From a virus, in IMG/VR virus record IMGVR_UViG_3300037488_000453, positions 1 through 31,781 of that record: a stretch of 31,781 nt of DNA; one strand, 5' to 3'. The translations under genes and the position numbers were made by a program. Below the pieces are notes generated by a model that had not been told where the DNA came from, did not search any database, and saw only the letters and a program-made list of their open reading frames with translations. How positions within the stretch are numbered: the stretch's first letter is position 1; every line of letters begins with the position of its first letter. Below are positions 3,803-29,565 of this stretch, one piece after another.

Positions 3803-4503
3803 TGCGTCGTTTAATCAATCTAAACATGCCAAATAACCTAGAAAACTCGTTAAAAGACGAGACATTTCACATAATTGTGAACACAACTGCCGATAACGTG
3901 GAGATATTCCTGACAGGAGTCGTCGGGGATGATTACATGGGCATGGACTCAGGTTCTATTGCCAAAGTGTTGAGTAACAATCGCGGCAAGCCAGTCACGC
4001 TACGAGTGAACTCTCCGGGCGGTCTGGCGTTCGACGGGTTGGCGATCCACAATGCATTGGCGGCACACGATGGGCCGACGACAGGCATCATTGAGGGACT
4101 GGCGGCGTCTGCTGCTAGTCTGGCCGTGATTGGATGCGACACGGTGAAGTGCTATGCGAACGCTACATACCAGATCCATGAAGGGCTGTCGTTTGCCTTT
4201 GGCCACATTGCGGATCTGCAAGACAGCATTGAATGGCTGCAACAATTTAACGAAGCGGCGGTTGCTACCTATGCCGCGAAGACGAAGAAACCTTACGAAT
4301 ATATCGCGGCAGCAATGCTAGGCGACAAAGGCGACGGAACGAAGTACACAGCACAGCAGGCCAAAGAAATCGGCTTCGTTGACGAAGTGATTCCGATCGG
4401 GAACAACAAGAAAACAGCAGCGAAAAATCAAGACCGTGAGCGATTGACCGGAATGCTGGCGTACCGAATTGCGAAACACAGGTTGACAATGCAGAGCAAG
4501 TGA
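3802..4503 (+). CDS. Prohead maturation protease (ClpP-like)
   Basis: ClpP/S14-type serine protease that processes the capsid during head maturation. The fold signature VNSPGG (residues 69-74), the nucleophile motif GLAASAAS (Ser103) and the histidine motif YQIHEG (His126) are in order, followed by the helical handle and ending near IGFVDEVIP. The length of 233 is typical. It sits between portal and capsid genes as in many HK97-like phages. A second in-frame ATG 24 bases downstream (MPNNLEN) is an alternative start, but the TAATG overlap with the portal supports the first. Confidence 0.92.
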   Translation: MRRLINLNMPNNLENSLKDETFHIIVNTTADNVEIFLTGVVGDDYMGMDSGSIAKVLSNNRGKPVTLRVNSPGGLAFDGLAIHNALAAHDGPTTGIIEGLAASAASLAVIGCDTVKCYANATYQIHEGLSFAFGHIADLQDSIEWLQQFNEAAVATYAAKTKKPYEYIAAAMLGDKGDGTKYTAQQAKEIGFVDEVIPIGNNKKTAAKNQDRERLTGMLAYRIAKHRLTMQSK

Positions 4504-4578
4504 ATTATGGTTTGTGCATCAGCCGCCAAATCTTAAGTAAGACGACGTGGCAAAAATGCGATCTGAGTGATAAGTTTC

Positions 4579-4633
4579 ACGCCAGTCGTTTGCAGATTTT
4601 CTATTACGAAAACCTGCCAGCGACTGGCGTTTT
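4579..4633 (+). terminator. Long hairpin between protease and capsid genes
   Basis: Two arms, 4579-4601 and 4608-4630, form a nearly continuous 23-bp stem around a TATTAC loop. The outer part is perfect (ACGCCAGTCG with CGACTGGCGT). The inner part (GCAGATTTTC with GAAAACCTGC) has one A-C mismatch. Only three T residues follow, so it is a weak terminator by tail. It could instead be an RNase processing site or mRNA stabiliser that sets capsid expression apart from upstream genes. The rest of the 159-base gap shows nothing recognisable except AAGGGA before the capsid start. Confidence 0.7.
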
Positions 4634-4662
4634 GCGTTAGTCCTGGCCAATAAGGGACTAAC

Positions 4663-6120
4663 ATGAAACGCACTGAGAAAATGACAGACCTTCAAAATCA
4701 GCGACACGCTGCGATTGAAGCGGCTGACGCATTGCTTGCAGCAGGCAAGAACGAAAGCCTAACACCAGCAGAGACGGCTGACATCGATCAGAAGCTCGCA
4801 CTGGTCGATGACCTTGGCAACCAGATTTCTGCCTTGGCTGAACAAGATAGCCAGATGGCAGCGGCAGCAGCTCGCCTAGACGCACAACGCAAGGCTCCAA
4901 TTGATGCTGCTATTGCAGGTATCGTTAATCGTGGTTCAGGCATGTCATCTATGCCTCCAGGTCAGGCGAAAGAACGCTGGACGATTCCAGCAACAGCACG
5001 TCGGCATTCAAAGGTGACGGCGTTCATTGATGATAAAAATGCGAATTCTGGAGGCTACACGGCTGAAGAAAAGGCATATCGGTTTGGTCAGTACGCACTG
5101 GCTAAAGCGTCGATTGATATGCCGGGAACTTACCGATTTGAAAACAGCACTAAGTTTTGCCGTGAGAACGGCATTATGAATGACTCGCATTTGGAAGGTG
5201 CTGGTGACAGCACTGGATCTGGTTTGTTCGTGCCTGAAGAATTCGGCACTGATTTGATTCGTTTGCGCGAAGAATTTGGCGTTGCTCGCCAACTGTGCAA
5301 AGTTGTTCCAATGTCCTCGGACACCCGGACAGATCCACGATGGAGCAGCGGACTGACAGCCTATTTCACGGGCGAAGGTTCAGCAGCGACGAGCAGCACT
5401 TTGGTGCATGATCAGGTGCGGCTGACTGCCAAAAAGATGACAGTGCTTTCGACGTACTCTAGCGAGTTGTCTGAAGATGCTGTAATTGATTTTGGTAGCA
5501 CGCTGGCTTCTGAAATGGCTTACGCAAGTGCGCTGAAAGAAGATCAGTGTCTGATCGACGGCGACGGCACTTCGACTTATGGTCACATTCGTGGCTTGAA
5601 AGCGCAGTTTGCGACAACCACAATCGGCACGGCTCCGGGCTATCGCGATGCGACTGGCACAACTTGGGCAGCAATCGTAATCGCCGACATTACGACGTTG
5701 ATCAGTGTTGTTCCAGTTTACGCACAGCAGGGCATGAAATTCCTGTGCTCCAGCCAGTTCTATTATCAGGTCATGGTTCCACTGCTTAACGCAGCGGGCG
5801 GTGTCACTGGCACTGAGCTGCAAGATGGATTTCGCCGTCCGATGTTCCAAGGCATTCCCGTGATGTTCTCACAGGTCATGCCAATCGCAACGGCTACAAG
5901 CGGAATCATGGTCATGTTGGGTCGATTCGATTTATCAACTTCGTTCGGAGATCGTCGCAAGATGACTCTGGAATTTTCCAAGGAAGCATACGTCGATTCA
6001 GTGAGCCTGTTTACTAACGATCTGATTGCTGTCAAATCTTCACAGCGTATGGACATCAATGTTCACAGCATTGGAAGTAACACGGTTGCAGGGCCAATCG
6101 TGGCTCTTGCAACTGCCTAG
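4663..6120 (+). CDS. Major capsid protein (HK97 fold)
   Basis: Main head shell subunit, phage capsid family PF05065 type. Residues 7-80 are a charged, helical, coiled-coil-like delta/scaffold domain. A linker and the maturation region follow, then the mature part beginning near residue 182 (GLFVPEEFGTDL). Downstream come the E-loop region, a spine helix and segments such as KMTVLSTYSSELSEDA and LIDGDG. No separate scaffold gene is present, so the N-terminal domain probably does that job and is removed by the upstream protease. AAGGGA five bases before the ATG supports this start. Hairpins lie on both sides of the gene, which may allow a discrete abundant mRNA. Confidence 0.95.
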   Translation: MKRTEKMTDLQNQRHAAIEAADALLAAGKNESLTPAETADIDQKLALVDDLGNQISALAEQDSQMAAAAARLDAQRKAPIDAAIAGIVNRGSGMSSMPPGQAKERWTIPATARRHSKVTAFIDDKNANSGGYTAEEKAYRFGQYALAKASIDMPGTYRFENSTKFCRENGIMNDSHLEGAGDSTGSGLFVPEEFGTDLIRLREEFGVARQLCKVVPMSSDTRTDPRWSSGLTAYFTGEGSAATSSTLVHDQVRLTAKKMTVLSTYSSELSEDAVIDFGSTLASEMAYASALKEDQCLIDGDGTSTYGHIRGLKAQFATTTIGTAPGYRDATGTTWAAIVIADITTLISVVPVYAQQGMKFLCSSQFYYQVMVPLLNAAGGVTGTELQDGFRRPMFQGIPVMFSQVMPIATATSGIMVMLGRFDLSTSFGDRRKMTLEFSKEAYVDSVSLFTNDLIAVKSSQRMDINVHSIGSNTVAGPIVALATA

Positions 6121-19848: not shown

Positions 19849-20345
19849 TGCGAGACGTTGCGGCGTGGTTGCCGAAAGATCGCGTCACAGTGATCGACGT
19901 TCTGGAATCTGGCGCCTGCTATGGAGGGGTGCGTGATTATATCGCCGTGACGCGAACGATTGCCGGTGAGCCAATCGACAGACCGGGAACAGAATCGCGA
20001 TTGTCTCGCGCTGCGAAACGCGATGGCTCTGGCTATGGCGATGGCTATGGCTCTGGCGATGGCTATGGCGATGGCTCTGGCTATGGCGATGGCTATGGCT
20101 ATGGCTCTGGCTATGGCGATGGCTATGGCGATGGCGATGGCGATGGCGATGGCTATGGCTCTGGCTCTGGCTATGGCTCTGGCGATGGCGATGGCTATGG
20201 CGATGGCTCTGGCGATGGCTATGGCTATGGCGATGGCGATGGCGATGGCGATGGCTATGGCGATGGCGATGGCGATGGCGATGGCTATGGCTATGGCTCT
20301 GGCTCTGGCTATGGCTCTGGCGATGGCTCTTTAGAACAACAATAA
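19848..20345 (+). CDS. Gly-X dipeptide repeat protein
   Basis: A 165-residue protein. The first 58 residues look like an ordinary small domain (WLPKDRVTVIDVLESGACYGGVRDYIAVTRT). The rest is an uninterrupted run of about 51 Gly-X dipeptides where X is only Asp, Tyr or Ser, ending LEQQ. The tail should be disordered, acidic and sticky through tyrosines. GGGAGA upstream and the TAATG link to the preceding gene support the start at ATG 19848. The longest alternative frame in the repeat encodes Met-Ala/Leu-Ala and is a by-product. Confidence 0.72.
   Translation: MRDVAAWLPKDRVTVIDVLESGACYGGVRDYIAVTRTIAGEPIDRPGTESRLSRAAKRDGSGYGDGYGSGDGYGDGSGYGDGYGYGSGYGDGYGDGDGDGDGYGSGSGYGSGDGDGYGDGSGDGYGYGDGDGDGDGYGDGDGDGDGYGYGSGSGYGSGDGSLEQQ
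20023..20330 (+). repeat. Hexanucleotide repeat array, three-letter alphabet
   Basis: About 51 units of six bases, each TATGGC, GATGGC or TCTGGC, with no other codons. The order is irregular and includes local duplicates such as four GATGGC in a row at several places. The array is prone to slippage and recombination, so its length probably varies between isolates. Confidence 0.95.
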
Positions 20346-22605: not shown

Positions 22606-22638
22606 ACCGCTATCGCCGTTCTGCGATAGCGGTTTTTC
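22606..22638 (+). terminator. Intrinsic terminator after the DUF669-like gene
   Basis: ACCGCTATCGC and GCGATAGCGGT form a perfect 11-bp stem around CGTTCT, followed by a T-rich tail (TTTTCTTT). It starts nine bases after the stop codon. Confidence 0.92.
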
Positions 22639-24608: not shown

Positions 24609-24714
24609 ATTAGAATCCGGGTGTCGCTGTAGAGAGCGATACAAACTAGATTCTTCAGGGGAAACCCTGACACCAGCCCTCGCATGACTGCTCTACCAGT
24701 TGTGCGAGGGTTTT
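24609..24714 (+). ncRNA. Kissing-loop RNA element K1
   Basis: A -10-like TAGAAT (24611-24616) precedes hairpin 1: GTGTCGCT (24621-24628), loop GTAGAG (24629-24634), AGCGATAC (24635-24642). A linker ACAAACTAGATTCTT leads to a CAGGG-GAAA-CCCTG hairpin (24656-24669). The terminator is CCCTCGCA-TGACTG (24677-24690), loop CTCTAC (24691-24696), CAGTTG-TGCGAGGG (24697-24710), then TTTT. The loop GTAGAG is the exact complement of CTCTAC, so the two hairpins can kiss. GGTGTC and GACACC (24669-24674) could form an alternative closing stem. It ends five bases before the ribosome binding site of the GIY-YIG gene, so it may be a leader attenuator or an independent sRNA. K2 has the same plan. Confidence 0.72.
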
Positions 24715-24731
24715 GCTTTGGAGTTCATGGA

Positions 24732-25445
24732 ATGAGAAACGTTTTGATTTACTGCCTGCAAGACCCGGACACTCTCCAGCCAAGGTATGTAGGCAAAACT
24801 GTAAACCTAGAAATGAGGCTCATGGCGCACCTATATGAGAAAAAAGAAAACCACAAATGCAGGTGGATAAAGTCGCTGCGAAAAGAGGGTAACAGCCCGT
24901 TTGTGACTGTCTTGGAGGAAATACAAAACAGCAACGATGAAGACTGGCAGGAGCCTGAAAGGTTTTGGATATCGCACCTGTTGAGCCTTGGCGCAAATCT
25001 AACAAACCTTGAGTCAGGCGGGCTCGGAGGTAAAAGCCACAGCGAGGAAACGAAAAAGAAAATGGCAGCATCCGCAACCGGCAGGGTGATGTCAAAAGAG
25101 TCTATTGAGAAAGGGAGACTGAAAAGGGTTGGCAGAAAACAATCTGCCGAGACCGTAGAAAAAAGACGGCAGAAAATGACCGGGAGAAAACTTAGCGACG
25201 AAACAAAAAAGAAAATCGGAGACAGGCATAGGGGTCGTGTTCATGGACAAGAAGTAAGAGCAAAAATGTCAGCAGCTTGTGTTGGCCGCAAGCCATCAAA
25301 AGAGGCAATTGAAAAAACTGCTGCTGCACATAGGGGTAAGTTCGTTTCTACGGAAACAAGAGCGAAGCTATCAGCCGCGATGTACCGAAGAATTGCAAAT
25401 ATAAAACAGTTAAAGCAAGTAAGACAACTGGAGTTGGTTGAATGA
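24732..25445 (+). CDS. GIY-YIG homing endonuclease with NUMOD3 repeats
   Basis: A 237-residue nuclease. The GIY-YIG module is at the N-terminus: IYCLQ (GIY position) and RYVGKTVNLEMRLMAH (YVG, Arg29), with the Glu of EEI/QEPERFW later. From about residue 97 there are seven NUMOD3-like DNA-binding repeats of 17 residues (for example SHSEETKKKMAASATGR, KLSDETKKKIGDRHRGR). The ATG at 24732 has TGGAG eight bases upstream; an earlier in-frame ATG lies inside the K1 terminator. No intron is evident, so it is probably free-standing. The stop overlaps the helicase start. Confidence 0.92.
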   Translation: MRNVLIYCLQDPDTLQPRYVGKTVNLEMRLMAHLYEKKENHKCRWIKSLRKEGNSPFVTVLEEIQNSNDEDWQEPERFWISHLLSLGANLTNLESGGLGGKSHSEETKKKMAASATGRVMSKESIEKGRLKRVGRKQSAETVEKRRQKMTGRKLSDETKKKIGDRHRGRVHGQEVRAKMSAACVGRKPSKEAIEKTAAAHRGKFVSTETRAKLSAAMYRRIANIKQLKQVRQLELVE

Positions 25446-27145
25446 TTACTGTACCACGCTACTACCAATCGCAAGCAAATGACGCTGTCTGGAAATTCCT
25501 AGCTGAACAGCCGGGGAACCCTATCGTTGTTTTACCGACTGGTGCCGGGAAAAGTTTTCTGGCAGCAATGATTGTAAACCAGTGTATTGAATTTGGCGGG
25601 AGGGCTGTTGTTCTAGCTCACCGCCGTGAACTTCTACAACAGAACCTTGATGCACTGAAATCATTGCTGCCGAACGTGTCGGCTGGAATCTACTCCGCAG
25701 GTTTGAAGTCACGAGACACGCAAAGCGACGTTGTATTTGCTGGCATCCAATCGGTGTACCGAAAAGCACTTGAACTTGGCGAGCGGTCGCTGATCATTAT
25801 TGATGAATGCCATTTGGTTTCGTCAGATGACGAAACGATGTACGGGCAGTTTCTTGCGGACGTCAAACTAGGAAACCCAAGGCAGCGTGTAGCTGGAATG
25901 AGCGCGACGCCCTATCGTACTGGATCAGGGCCGCTCTGTGGACGCAATAAATTGTTCCAAAAAATTTGCTATGAAGCGTACACAGGAGACCTGATTCAGC
26001 AGGGCTTCCTTTGTCCGATCACGAACAGGCCAGCAGATAAAACCGTTGATACGTCGCTTATCAAAATGCGCGGCGGTGAATTCATTGAAAATGAAATGCA
26101 GTCTGCTTTTGACACGACCGACAATGTCTCAGCAGCTTGCAAAGAGATTGTCGCGAAGTGTCAGGGACGACATTCGATTCTGGTGTTCGCGGCTGGTGTA
26201 GCTCATGCGGAACACGTCGCCGAAACGATCCGCCAGAATTCTGGAGAAGTGGTCGGCATCGTGACAGGTGAGACGTTCGCGATGGAGCGGTCGGCAACGC
26301 TGGCTGACTTCAAACGCGGTTCGCTTCGGTGGCTTGTAAACTGCGATGTGTTGACGACTGGATTTGATGCGCCGTGCATTGATGCTATCTGTGTCCTGCG
26401 GGCCACAATGTCGCCGGGATTGTTTGCTCAGATTGTTGGTCGAGGACTGCGAAAACACGAATCCAAAACAGAAGTTCTCGTTCTAGACTACGGAGAAAAT
26501 TTGAAAAGATTTGGCAGCCTCGACGATCCAAACTATGGCCGATCGTCCGCAGCATTCACCGGCACGCGAACTAGTCCTGCGGAGAACAATGGACGCGGCA
26601 AGGAGTGTCCAAACTGCGGTCAGGACGTGGCCGCCAGATCTGCGGAGTGTGAGGACTGCGGTTTTATCTTTCCCGTCAAACATGAGTCGCAGGCAGATCA
26701 CGAGTCAGCGATTACGGGCCAGACGCCACCGGAGACATGGACGGTCAACAGAGTCACATGGGCACGTCACACGAAGAAAGGTGGCGGCGATGCTCCTCCG
26801 ACACTGAGGATCGATTACGACTGCACGAAGGGCGAAGGCGACATGAAGCAAACGATCAGCGAGTACATCTGTCTTGAACATACCGGATACGCGAGAACAA
26901 AGGCTGGCCTGTGGTGGCAGGCAAGGAGTCTTAGCTATTGCCCGAACGATGTCAGTGAAGCAATCGACATGCTGGACCGTGGTGCGTGCCGAATGCCAGT
27001 GACGATCACGACTGAAATGGACGGCAAGTATTTCCGAATCAAATCGGTTGAGTTCGCTGAAGATAAACCGGAGACGTGGCGTGAGGCGGATGAGCCGGTT
27101 GAGTTGTTGAGCGAGGGTGGTTTTGATGATGATGTACCTTTTTAG
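25442..27145 (+). CDS. SF2 DNA helicase with zinc ribbon and SSB-like tail
   Basis: A 567-residue RadD/SSL2-like superfamily 2 helicase. Motif I PTGAGKS (32-38), motif II DECH (121-124), motif III SAT (154-156), the FDAP region (308-311) and motif VI QIVGRGLR (330-337) are all intact. A four-cysteine ribbon follows (C389-x2-C392, C403-x2-C406). The C-terminal 150 residues are unassigned and the last residues are FDDDVPF, nearly identical to the acidic tip of bacterial SSB. It likely unwinds or remodels phage DNA. Coupled to the nuclease gene by ATGA. Confidence 0.93.
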   Translation: MITVPRYYQSQANDAVWKFLAEQPGNPIVVLPTGAGKSFLAAMIVNQCIEFGGRAVVLAHRRELLQQNLDALKSLLPNVSAGIYSAGLKSRDTQSDVVFAGIQSVYRKALELGERSLIIIDECHLVSSDDETMYGQFLADVKLGNPRQRVAGMSATPYRTGSGPLCGRNKLFQKICYEAYTGDLIQQGFLCPITNRPADKTVDTSLIKMRGGEFIENEMQSAFDTTDNVSAACKEIVAKCQGRHSILVFAAGVAHAEHVAETIRQNSGEVVGIVTGETFAMERSATLADFKRGSLRWLVNCDVLTTGFDAPCIDAICVLRATMSPGLFAQIVGRGLRKHESKTEVLVLDYGENLKRFGSLDDPNYGRSSAAFTGTRTSPAENNGRGKECPNCGQDVAARSAECEDCGFIFPVKHESQADHESAITGQTPPETWTVNRVTWARHTKKGGGDAPPTLRIDYDCTKGEGDMKQTISEYICLEHTGYARTKAGLWWQARSLSYCPNDVSEAIDMLDRGACRMPVTITTEMDGKYFRIKSVEFAEDKPETWREADEPVELLSEGGFDDDVPF

Positions 27146-27146
27146 G

Positions 27147-27176
27147 TTGATCATGGCGGTCGTGAGTGATTACAAT
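27147..27176 (+). promoter_or_regulatory. Possible promoter for K2
   Basis: TTGATC (27147-27152), an 18-base spacer and TACAAT (27171-27176), right after the helicase stop. The -10 matches the one before K1 (TAGAAT) in position relative to hairpin 1. The -35 before K1 is not recognisable, so only the -10 is conserved between copies. Confidence 0.5.
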
Positions 27177-27273
27177 CGTGGCACGGAATGCCGTAGAAGG
27201 GCAGGCCACAACTGATATTGTTTCCGACCCTCGTGCGTTGATGCTTCTACCATCAATGTGCGAGGGTTTTTTT
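27169..27273 (+). ncRNA. Kissing-loop RNA element K2
   Basis: Starts with ATTACAATC (K1 has ATTAGAATC). Hairpin 1 is GTGGC-ACGGAA-TGCC (27178-27192), loop GTAGAAG (27193-27199), GGCA-G-GCCAC (27200-27209). The linker ACAACTGATATTGTTTCC resembles that of K1. The terminator is a 16-bp stem, 27228-27243 with 27251-27266, around loop CTTCTAC (27244-27250), then T7. The two loops are perfectly complementary over seven bases. Compared with K1, the loop pair has changed on both sides and grown by one base on both sides, and the inner terminator stem also covaries (TGACTG/CAGTTG to TTGATG/CATCAA). It ends 156 bases before the PrimPol gene. Confidence 0.72.
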
Positions 27274-27286
27274 ATGCTTAGAAAGA

Positions 27287-27415
27287 ATTGATATTCATCC
27301 GCAGAGCCTGACGACGAAGACATTTCGCCGACATCATAAAACAAATAAAGTAATCGAAACAGCAATGTCTGAACTTGGTTTCGAATACGAAAAACGAATC
27401 ATCACGCGATCCTGA
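27287..27415 (+). other. Protein-like frame without a standard start
   Basis: An open frame reading IDIHPQSLTTKTFRRHHKTN, then KVIETAMSELGFEYEKRIITRS and a stop. Its composition and the TTKTFRRHH / SELGFEYE pattern look protein-like, possibly a small winged-helix fragment. No ATG, GTG or TTG precedes it in frame after the stop at 27239. The first candidate is an ATT, and no good ribosome binding site is seen. It could be a degraded gene or chance. Otherwise the K2-to-PrimPol gap holds nothing clear. Confidence 0.25.
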
Positions 27416-27429
27416 ACAGAAGCCTTAAC

Positions 27430-29565
27430 ATGTTCCACGTCCCCGCAGAACTTAAAAGCCTTCGCCAGTGGCATTGCTGGAACTACAGCAGCGAAGGCGT
27501 CAAAATCCCGTTGCAGCTTAATGGTAGTGCGGCGAAGTCTAATGATCCTCAAACATGGACTGACTACGAAAACGCTCTCGGGGCGTGCGTCTATTATCAG
27601 GGACTGGCCTTTGAGTTGCACGATGGGCCATACACAGGCATCGATCTAGACAACTGCCTTGACGAAGACGGCAATCTAAGAGAATGGGCACTACCAATTG
27701 TCGCAAGGCTTGACGGCGTTGCCTACGGTGAGATCAGTCCGAGTGGCACTGGAATCAAGTTCCTGACACGCGCTAGGAAGCCAGAGGGTGCTAAGTGTCT
27801 GCACAAGATCGGCGACGACAAGCAGCAGATTGAGTGCTACGATCACGCGCGGTTCTGGACGATTACCGGCGACGTTTACAACCGACAGGACACAATCGCA
27901 GACGGACAGCAAGTCATTGATTGGCTCTGCAAAACCTATTTGTCAGGAGCGGAGCAACAGACGGCAGCGGTTAAACAGTTACCAGCTCCGCCGCGAGTCA
28001 CTGACACGCCATTGATGTCACGGGCAGTCGCCTACGTCGAAACGATCCCAGGGCAATCCAAAGGCAATCTAAGGAACGCAGCATTCAGCCTGTCTGGACA
28101 TCTGCATTCGATGGTCGGCGACTTTGGCGAGCGGTTGACAGACAGCGAGGTTCTCGACCTACTAAGGGACTGGAATCAGAAAAACAAAACACCGCTACGG
28201 TTCGACGAGTTGCAGGAGGCTGCTATCAATGGTCGCACAAACGGCACGCCTCGGGCAGACAAGCTGCCTCGGGTGTATGTCGATTTGAATGACGGCGTCA
28301 ACATTGATTGTCTGATCAATCGCTCGTCAGTTCCAGATGTTCCATTTCCTATTGACTGCCTTGAGATCCCCGGTCTGATTGGGGACATCGTCAAGCACAA
28401 TCTGGCGACTGCACACTACCCTCTGCCTGAGCTGGCGTTGGCTTCGGCAATCGCGTTGATGTCGTCCATCACGGGCGGCAAGGTCGCAGATCGTGGAGCG
28501 AGAACGAATCTATTTATCCTCGGGCTGGCTCCGAGTGGTGGCGGCAAAGATCACGGCAGGAAGCTGAATCGCAACATCCTGCGGGCGGCAGGTGGCGGCG
28601 ATATCATCGGGCCAGAGCGGATCGGAAGTCACGCCGGTATCATTTCAGCAATGGCGTTCCAATGGAATACGCTGTTCCAGATTGACGAAATCCAGCATCT
28701 AGCAATGGCGATGCAAGACAGGTCAAGTCCGCATCTGGTGCAGATTGCCAGTGTGTTGATGCAGATATTTTCTTCAGCCGATAGCATCTGGATCGGTGAC
28801 GCTTACGGAGATCGGGCGAAGGTTAAGACACTGCATTTTCCACACTTGGTGCTGTACGGGACTTCGGTTCCTGAAGGATTTTGGGAGTCAATGACGGAGG
28901 CAAACCTGAAAGGCGGTCTGATTGGCAGGTGTCTAGTCTTTGAATCGACAAAGTATGTGCCTTACCAGGATCCAGCCGACGACAGAATACCAGAGTCGAT
29001 CATAGAACGAGTCAATGGCTGGCTAAGTCTGCGAACGCACGCAGGCGACATGGCTGACAAGTCTGACGGCGCATGGCCGCTCGCTATCCTGCGGGACGAA
29101 GCGGCAAAAGAGCGACTGCACGAACATACCTGCCAGATCAGTAACAGGCGCATGTCCGAGGAGCCAATCACGGCGGCAATTTGGTCTCGGGCTGCGGAGA
29201 AAACAATCAAGCTGGCGTTGCTGTTTGCCTGCTCTCGATTCGATGGCGTCACGCTTCCGACGATCCAATTGCAAGACGCTGATTTGGCGATCAGGATCAA
29301 TAATTGGATCACGCGCAGGATGCTCCAGCAGGCCGACAGGCACGTCGCCAAAACGCCTTTCGGTCAGCAGGTCAATGAGATGAGAACCCTATTGAGGACA
29401 GAAAACAGGGCATGGACGCTGACGGAAATCACACGGAAAACCAGAGGTCTGAAACCAAAGGAGCGAAGCGATATCCTGCAAACATTGATCCTTGACGGCA
29501 CGATTTTGCAGGGTGAAAAAGTGACTGGCGGGCGGTCGGCAATGACGTTTCTGGTCATCGAATAG
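27430..29565 (+). CDS. Primase-polymerase / helicase-like ATPase fusion
   Basis: A 711-residue replication protein. The N-terminal PrimPol (AEP-like, NrS-1 style) domain has WHCWNY, GIDLDNC (catalytic D72 and D74), SPSGTG (103-108) and IECYDHARFWTITG (134-147). A helical linker region (190-275) follows. The ATPase domain is DUF3987-like with Walker A APSGGGKD (367-374) and Walker B QIDE (417-420), then GRCLVFE. The last 70 residues look like a winged helix (WTLTEITRKTRGL). It would prime and help unwind phage DNA. The ribosome binding site is weak, so K2 upstream may regulate it. Confidence 0.87.
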   Translation: MFHVPAELKSLRQWHCWNYSSEGVKIPLQLNGSAAKSNDPQTWTDYENALGACVYYQGLAFELHDGPYTGIDLDNCLDEDGNLREWALPIVARLDGVAYGEISPSGTGIKFLTRARKPEGAKCLHKIGDDKQQIECYDHARFWTITGDVYNRQDTIADGQQVIDWLCKTYLSGAEQQTAAVKQLPAPPRVTDTPLMSRAVAYVETIPGQSKGNLRNAAFSLSGHLHSMVGDFGERLTDSEVLDLLRDWNQKNKTPLRFDELQEAAINGRTNGTPRADKLPRVYVDLNDGVNIDCLINRSSVPDVPFPIDCLEIPGLIGDIVKHNLATAHYPLPELALASAIALMSSITGGKVADRGARTNLFILGLAPSGGGKDHGRKLNRNILRAAGGGDIIGPERIGSHAGIISAMAFQWNTLFQIDEIQHLAMAMQDRSSPHLVQIASVLMQIFSSADSIWIGDAYGDRAKVKTLHFPHLVLYGTSVPEGFWESMTEANLKGGLIGRCLVFESTKYVPYQDPADDRIPESIIERVNGWLSLRTHAGDMADKSDGAWPLAILRDEAAKERLHEHTCQISNRRMSEEPITAAIWSRAAEKTIKLALLFACSRFDGVTLPTIQLQDADLAIRINNWITRRMLQQADRHVAKTPFGQQVNEMRTLLRTENRAWTLTEITRKTRGLKPKERSDILQTLILDGTILQGEKVTGGRSAMTFLVIE

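Follow-up and report, generated by a model that had tools for sequence, protein, structure and literature searches.

A candidate phage leader-RNA family in which an upstream hairpin and an intrinsic terminator carry complementary loops

Results

Two elements with complementary loops in a metagenomic phage

The window analysed here is a stretch of 31,781 nucleotides, positions 1 to 31,781 of the IMG/VR virus record IMGVR_UViG_3300037488_000453. Two elements, K1 and K2, are present in it on either side of a helicase gene, and each consists of a hairpin (SL1) followed by an intrinsic terminator (SL3) (Table 1). K1 stands ahead of a homing endonuclease gene. There is no intact gene directly behind K2, only the remnant of an ORF, and it is likely that the gene once led by K2 has been lost.

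Table 1. Positions of K1, K2 and the genes behind them in the window.
Feature	Position	Strand	Remarks
K1 -10-like hexamer TAGAAT	24611..24616	+	weak -35; promoter score 7/12, alone not significant
K1 SL1 (hairpin 1), GGTGTCGCT[GTAGAG]AGCGATACA	24620..24643	+	
K1 SL1 loop GTAGAG	24629..24634	+	exact complement of 24691-24696
K1 SL2, small spacer hairpin with GAAA loop	24655..24670	+	
K1 SL3, intrinsic terminator	24675..24712	+	16 bp
K1 SL3 loop CTCTAC	24691..24696	+	
K1 U-run	24711..24714	+	
GIY-YIG/NUMOD3 homing endonuclease gene behind K1	24732..25445	+	GGAG at 24720-24723
K2 promoter-like site TTGATC-18-TACAAT	27147..27176	+	-10-like hexamer TACAAT at 27171-27176, TTGATC 18 nt upstream; shuffle P ~0.013
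K2 SL1, outer GTGGC/GCCAC, inner TGCC[GTAGAAG]GGCA	27178..27209	+	
K2 SL1 loop GTAGAAG	27193..27199	+	
K2 SL3, intrinsic terminator	27226..27268	+	18 bp
K2 SL3 loop CTTCTAC	27244..27250	+	
K2 U-run	27267..27273	+	overlaps last stem bases
C-terminal remnant of ORF behind K2	27276..27413	+	function unassigned; longer relative in L280
Primase gene	27430..29565	+	relatives carry kissing leaders in other phages

The initial annotation had claimed that the two loops are complementary in K1 (6 nt) and in K2 (7 nt), and this held to the exact letters and positions. The outer terminator stem CCCTCG...CGAGGG that it described as common to both elements was also confirmed, and a pattern search of the whole record found only these two copies. 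The motif ATTA(G/C)AATC that it placed at the 5' end of the element had to be corrected: it contains the -10-like hexamer and is mostly promoter DNA. The small hairpin between SL1 and the terminator is found in K1 only and is missing from K2. The loops of K1 and K2 cross-match over 5 nt.

A terminator at 22606-22633 was considered as a further kissing element and rejected, as its 6-nt upstream match is coding sequence without a hairpin and is attributed to chance. The leader of the capsid gene (4480-4663) carries a promoter-like TTGACA-17-TATGGT, then a strong terminator at about 4580-4629 and a hairpin near the start codon; kissing loops were not found there. Two segments inside a predicted ORF (20041-20156 and 20185-20294) both weakly match one unrelated microRNA model (29 bits, gathering threshold 110) and are likely an internal repeat, not an RNA gene.

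Homologous elements in related phages

Using the helicase encoded between K1 and K2 we fetched 58 related loci, which were searched with a descriptor for an upstream hairpin and a terminator hairpin with complementary loops. In L004 this revealed a near-identical copy of K2 ahead of another gene, and L022/L035 and L032 had new loop pairs. Scans with the Sak4-like ATPase and the primase gave many further elements. A fold-based scan of 4.1 Mb of mostly related loci, with thresholds of -27 kcal/mol or lower for the terminator and at least 6 nt for the complementary upstream hairpin loop, found 26 distinct elements, K1 and K2 among them, and the reversed sequences gave none at the same stringency. 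For comparison we used 21 representatives (K1, K2 and 19 more), taken from DNA near the helicase, Sak4-like and primase genes in related phages of IMG/VR. Since every member comes from a metagenomic contig reached through neighbouring genes, the spread described here is that of the sampled neighbourhoods only.

Genes behind the elements include those for Sak4-like annealing proteins, primases and a GIY-YIG endonuclease, together with some ORFs whose function is unknown. Many related phages have the primase without a kissing leader, thus the elements come and go. No strong element was found near relatives of the GIY-YIG gene behind K1, and hence nothing indicates that this homing endonuclease and the leader move together.

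No new loop types came from fuller records of related phages, and no convincing kissing element was found in Planctomycetota prophages that have relatives of the ATPase. In 1.9 Mb of mostly unrelated phage DNA there was no strong kissing element except the second L004 copy. BLASTN of K1 and K2 against cultured phages returned short chance matches only. Patterns with fixed loop letters gave 120 matches that were mostly chance and later 3, of which only the L004 copy was real, and a minus-strand match in L205 was the same element read in reverse. For the replication proteins the nearest cultured phages are distant and a closely related one was not found. The host is likely a member of the Planctomycetota, although this is inferred only from the presence of ATPase relatives in Planctomycetota genomes.

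The loop-loop helix covaries and is under selection

The 21 representatives contain 15 different loop pairs, each fully complementary over 6-8 nt, and non-cognate combinations of loops reached 6 nt in only 2 of 210 cases. When whole elements were aligned with MAFFT the loops fell out of register, and pairs were therefore counted on equal-length pieces of loop and stem. For the 13 elements with 7-nt loops all 91 cells of the loop-loop helix were paired, with 32 double changes, and each of the 7 pairs had changed on both sides. Covariation of this helix was 1.000, compared to 0.228 after shuffling; none of 500 shuffles matched it, and slid registers were at most 46% paired. The stems covary as well.

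Since the loops were known to be complementary when the pieces were cut around them by hand, the 100% pairing is partly due to how members were selected. What gives the covariation its weight is the diversity of loop types, together with the reversed-sequence controls. The elements in L457, L456 and L477 were read first as upstream regions of primase genes and their complementary loops recognised afterwards; they add independent weight since they were found by gene homology and not by loop complementarity. These data show that the loop-loop contact is maintained by natural selection.

In most elements, K1 and K2 included, complementarity ends exactly at the loop edges, an arrangement that agrees better with kissing hairpins than with an extended antiterminator helix. 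The stems contain 43 G-U wobbles versus 14 A-C mismatches, which indicates selection on the RNA-sense strand. A role at the level of DNA was set aside on the basis of this asymmetry, the U-run and the promoter association.

Close relatives differ in their loops. The linkers of L256 and L457 are nearly identical, and their loops are GTAGCAG/CTGCTAC and GTACGAG/CTCGTAC, respectively. L207 and L209 share 93% identity in the promoter and 81% in the gene, compared to 36% in the SL1 stem and 57% in the loops, so that a strongly diverged RNA element lies between a conserved promoter and a conserved gene (L207:1440-1900 and L209:220-700). Diversifying selection or replacement of a cassette are possible explanations.

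Position of the elements relative to promoter-like sites and genes

SL1 is closely preceded by a promoter-like -35/-10 pair scoring at least 8/12 in 8 of 13 lineages, against 0.7 expected, and the promoter score summed over lineages exceeded that of all 300 shuffles. Examples are TTGACA-16-TAAGAT in L209 and TTGACA-18-TATCGT in L197. The remaining 5 of the 13 lineages either have no clear promoter (L011, L032a, L204 and L456) or a weak one (K1). Among strong terminators that precede start codons in these phages, a promoter of at least 9/12 was found ahead of 6 of 12 kissing terminators compared to 6 of 121 others, and one of these six others, in L207, is itself kissing.

SL3 is followed by the U-run and, at 14-30 nt, by the start codon. 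Since there is almost no room for a promoter between the terminator and the ribosome-binding site, the gene behind the element must be reached by read-through, and the element can thus gate that gene. Plain non-kissing terminators directly before genes are numerous in these phages, so a terminator in this position does not alone prove regulation. What sequence comparison shows is the two hairpins with the signature of a terminator, selection for the loop-loop pairing, a position before genes and, for part of the lineages, an association with promoter-like sites.

We found no conserved alternative antiterminator. The 5' arm of SL3 is predicted to pair upstream in about half of the nascent RNAs, in different ways. 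By a crude estimate the linker is long enough for intramolecular kissing in 20 of the 21 representatives, L197 being the exception. Across 19 members no residue of SL1 or SL2 is conserved, and of 140 alignment columns only the U-run and isolated columns are invariant. Rfam 15 covariance models gave no match at K1, at K2 or in 8 homologous loci, even at permissive E-values, and no description of such an element was found in the literature searched, which was open-access only.

The initial annotation had proposed a candidate new RNA family whose loop-loop contact is selected and suggested looking for homologues with complementary loops, for covariation and for an Rfam match. Its claim is supported by the 15 loop pairs found, by the complete covariation of the loop-loop helix and by the absence of an Rfam match in the window elements and the 8 homologous loci. 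It had missed that a promoter usually lies upstream and that the terminator lies directly before the ribosome-binding site of a gene. The -10 box, the upstream promoter and the terminator before the ribosome-binding site point to an attenuator-like leader RNA rather than a free intergenic RNA; this is inferred from sequence alone and we hold the odds to be close to balanced.

Discussion

A model for the kissing leader

We propose a new family of phage leader RNAs, with K1 and K2 as members, in which promoter, hairpin and terminator gate the next gene. In the absence of transcript, termination or probing data we give this reading a probability of roughly 0.52. In the model, transcription would start at a promoter that puts SL1 at or near the 5' end of the RNA. 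SL1 would be followed by a linker, usually carrying the small spacer hairpin SL2, and then by SL3, the long terminator just ahead of the next start codon. The loop of SL1 would pair over its whole length with the loop of SL3 to give an intramolecular kissing complex, and this contact would determine what share of RNA polymerases terminate at SL3 and what share continue into the gene. The predicted termination product is a kissing-locked RNA of about 80-120 nt.

That the contact forms in cis is an inference, as sequence does not distinguish pairing in cis from pairing in trans. That it affects termination, setting the balance between a stop at SL3 and read-through, is likewise inferred and may well prove wrong as easily as right. 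The direction of any effect is not known. Since the complementarity leaves both hairpins intact, we lean slightly towards a contact that promotes or stabilises termination over one that favours read-through.

Alternative explanations

The strongest alternative, which we consider less likely, is a stable small RNA: the RNA released at the terminator would itself be the product, acting in trans or by forming homodimers, and its loops would serve as a self-recognition code. The SL1 loop of one RNA would pair with the SL3 loop of another, so that RNAs of one type would recognise either one another or a nascent leader from a same-type co-infecting phage. In its favour the loop types are nearly orthogonal, the element has diverged between L207 and L209 far more than the promoter and gene around it, and K2 is retained in the window although its gene is gone. 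The phage-encoded RNAs GOLLD and ROOL also assemble through intermolecular kissing loops (PMC12286853). However, the fixed short distance of the terminator from the start codon is more leader-like, the linkers are long enough for pairing in cis, the K1 and K2 loops cross-match within the one window, and a structured RNA may turn over fast without diversifying selection. A bolder version, which we consider unlikely though possible, is that the loops are an RNA self-recognition code under diversifying selection, with the terminated leader RNA sensing through its loops any leaders with the same code, from another copy or a co-infecting phage, and altering their termination.

It is unlikely that the elements are put-like, with SL1 (and SL2) binding the transcribing polymerase so that SL3 and later terminators are ignored. 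Such a role would be consistent with promoter-proximal hairpins followed by terminators in replication-gene operons, where many in-operon terminators require read-through, and the put RNAs of HK022 are about 70 nt with two stem-loops downstream of early promoters (PMC9378689). However, put does not depend on being complementary to a terminator loop, and put RNAs resemble one another in sequence whereas SL1 and SL2 have no residues conserved across members.

A metabolite or protein riboswitch with the kissing contact as part of its aptamer is very unlikely. The leader position with a terminator as expression platform would suit it, and loop-loop contacts are present in known riboswitch aptamers. 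Against it are the lack of a conserved aptamer core in 19 members (140 columns), the diverse downstream genes, the lack of a conserved antiterminator and the lack of an Rfam match. From K1 and K2 alone it could not be excluded that an ordinary hairpin and an ordinary terminator were complementary by chance, but this is all but ruled out by the 15 compensated loop types, 0/500 shuffles, 0 in reversed controls and the lack of a strong case in the mostly unrelated phage DNA beyond the second L004 copy.

Comparison with known systems

The putRNA of HK022 (putL and putR) is a phage cis-acting, promoter-proximal hairpin RNA ahead of early-operon terminators (PMC9378689), and it shares with our elements that both are promoter-proximal phage hairpin RNAs preceding terminators. 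In contrast, put has two stem-loops with shared sequence and no terminator-complementary loop, and the terminator is not part of the element. Shared SL1/SL2 sequence of the put kind was absent even within the K1/K2 family when members were compared among themselves.

The phage lambda PR' leader (6S RNA, Q antitermination) consists of a promoter, a short RNA, a strong terminator and then genes, a layout common to the kissing leaders. However, Q works through a DNA site within the promoter and loop-loop pairing is not involved, and the kissing leaders are units before single replication genes with at most two per contig. Attenuators and terminator-platform riboswitches likewise have a leader with an intrinsic terminator just ahead of the ribosome-binding site. 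Here there is no conserved sensor core or antiterminator, and the tertiary contact is made by the terminator loop itself.

In ColE1 RNA I/RNA II, HIV TAR-TAR* and DIS kissing complexes, loops of 6-7 nt pair along most or all of their length and specificity is set by loop sequence. Those complexes join two molecules, whereas a kissing leader has its two loops within a single transcript, one of them capping an intrinsic terminator. Nor are the kissing leaders a ColE1-type antisense pair, whose RNAs come from opposite strands: in each of the 21 representatives the two loops belong to the same element and the same strand. GOLLD and ROOL are phage-encoded structured RNAs with kissing loops (PMC12286853), but they are hundreds of nucleotides long, often near tRNA genes and present in Rfam; the kissing leaders are 80-120 nt, stand before protein genes and have no Rfam match. 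None of the systems compared (HK022 put, lambda PR', attenuators, ColE1 RNA I/II and GOLLD/ROOL) has the terminator-loop contact, and only single aspects are shared.

Significance

This apparently undescribed RNA family is defined by a tertiary contact that covaries completely and in which a terminator loop is the pairing partner. Intrinsic terminators are usually seen as self-contained hairpins, and a selected contact with the terminator apex makes tertiary control of termination testable. The 15 natural and mostly non-cross-matching loop pairs are ready parts for a compensatory-mutation test. The fast turnover of loops in close relatives raises the question of whether the loops let phages distinguish self from other. 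If the self-recognition code were true, it would amount to RNA-based immunity or incompatibility between phages, from which lineages would escape by compensated changes in both loops.

Other candidate elements

On the minus strand of L196 (about 1880-1995 of the reverse complement) there is a kissing element GTGGAAG/CTTCCAC with the promoter TTGACA-18-TATGGT. It lies before a different gene (MTHQQTLFDDERDPKIA...), thus the elements are not confined to the helicase-primase neighbourhood. On the minus strand of L148, an unrelated phage contig, an isolated kissing-like hairpin and terminator (GTGATG/CATCAC, about 2760-2860 of the reverse complement) has complementarity that runs into the closing pairs and a weak U-run, and may be due to chance. 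In L031 (5723-5862), after the helicase, a promoter TTGACA-18-TATAGT (11/12) is followed by an RNA and then by an RSRLEARW-type ORF. The 5' segment of this RNA, GGCCACCAA, is complementary to TTGGTGGCC within the long loop of its terminator, which could conceivably be the same design without SL1.
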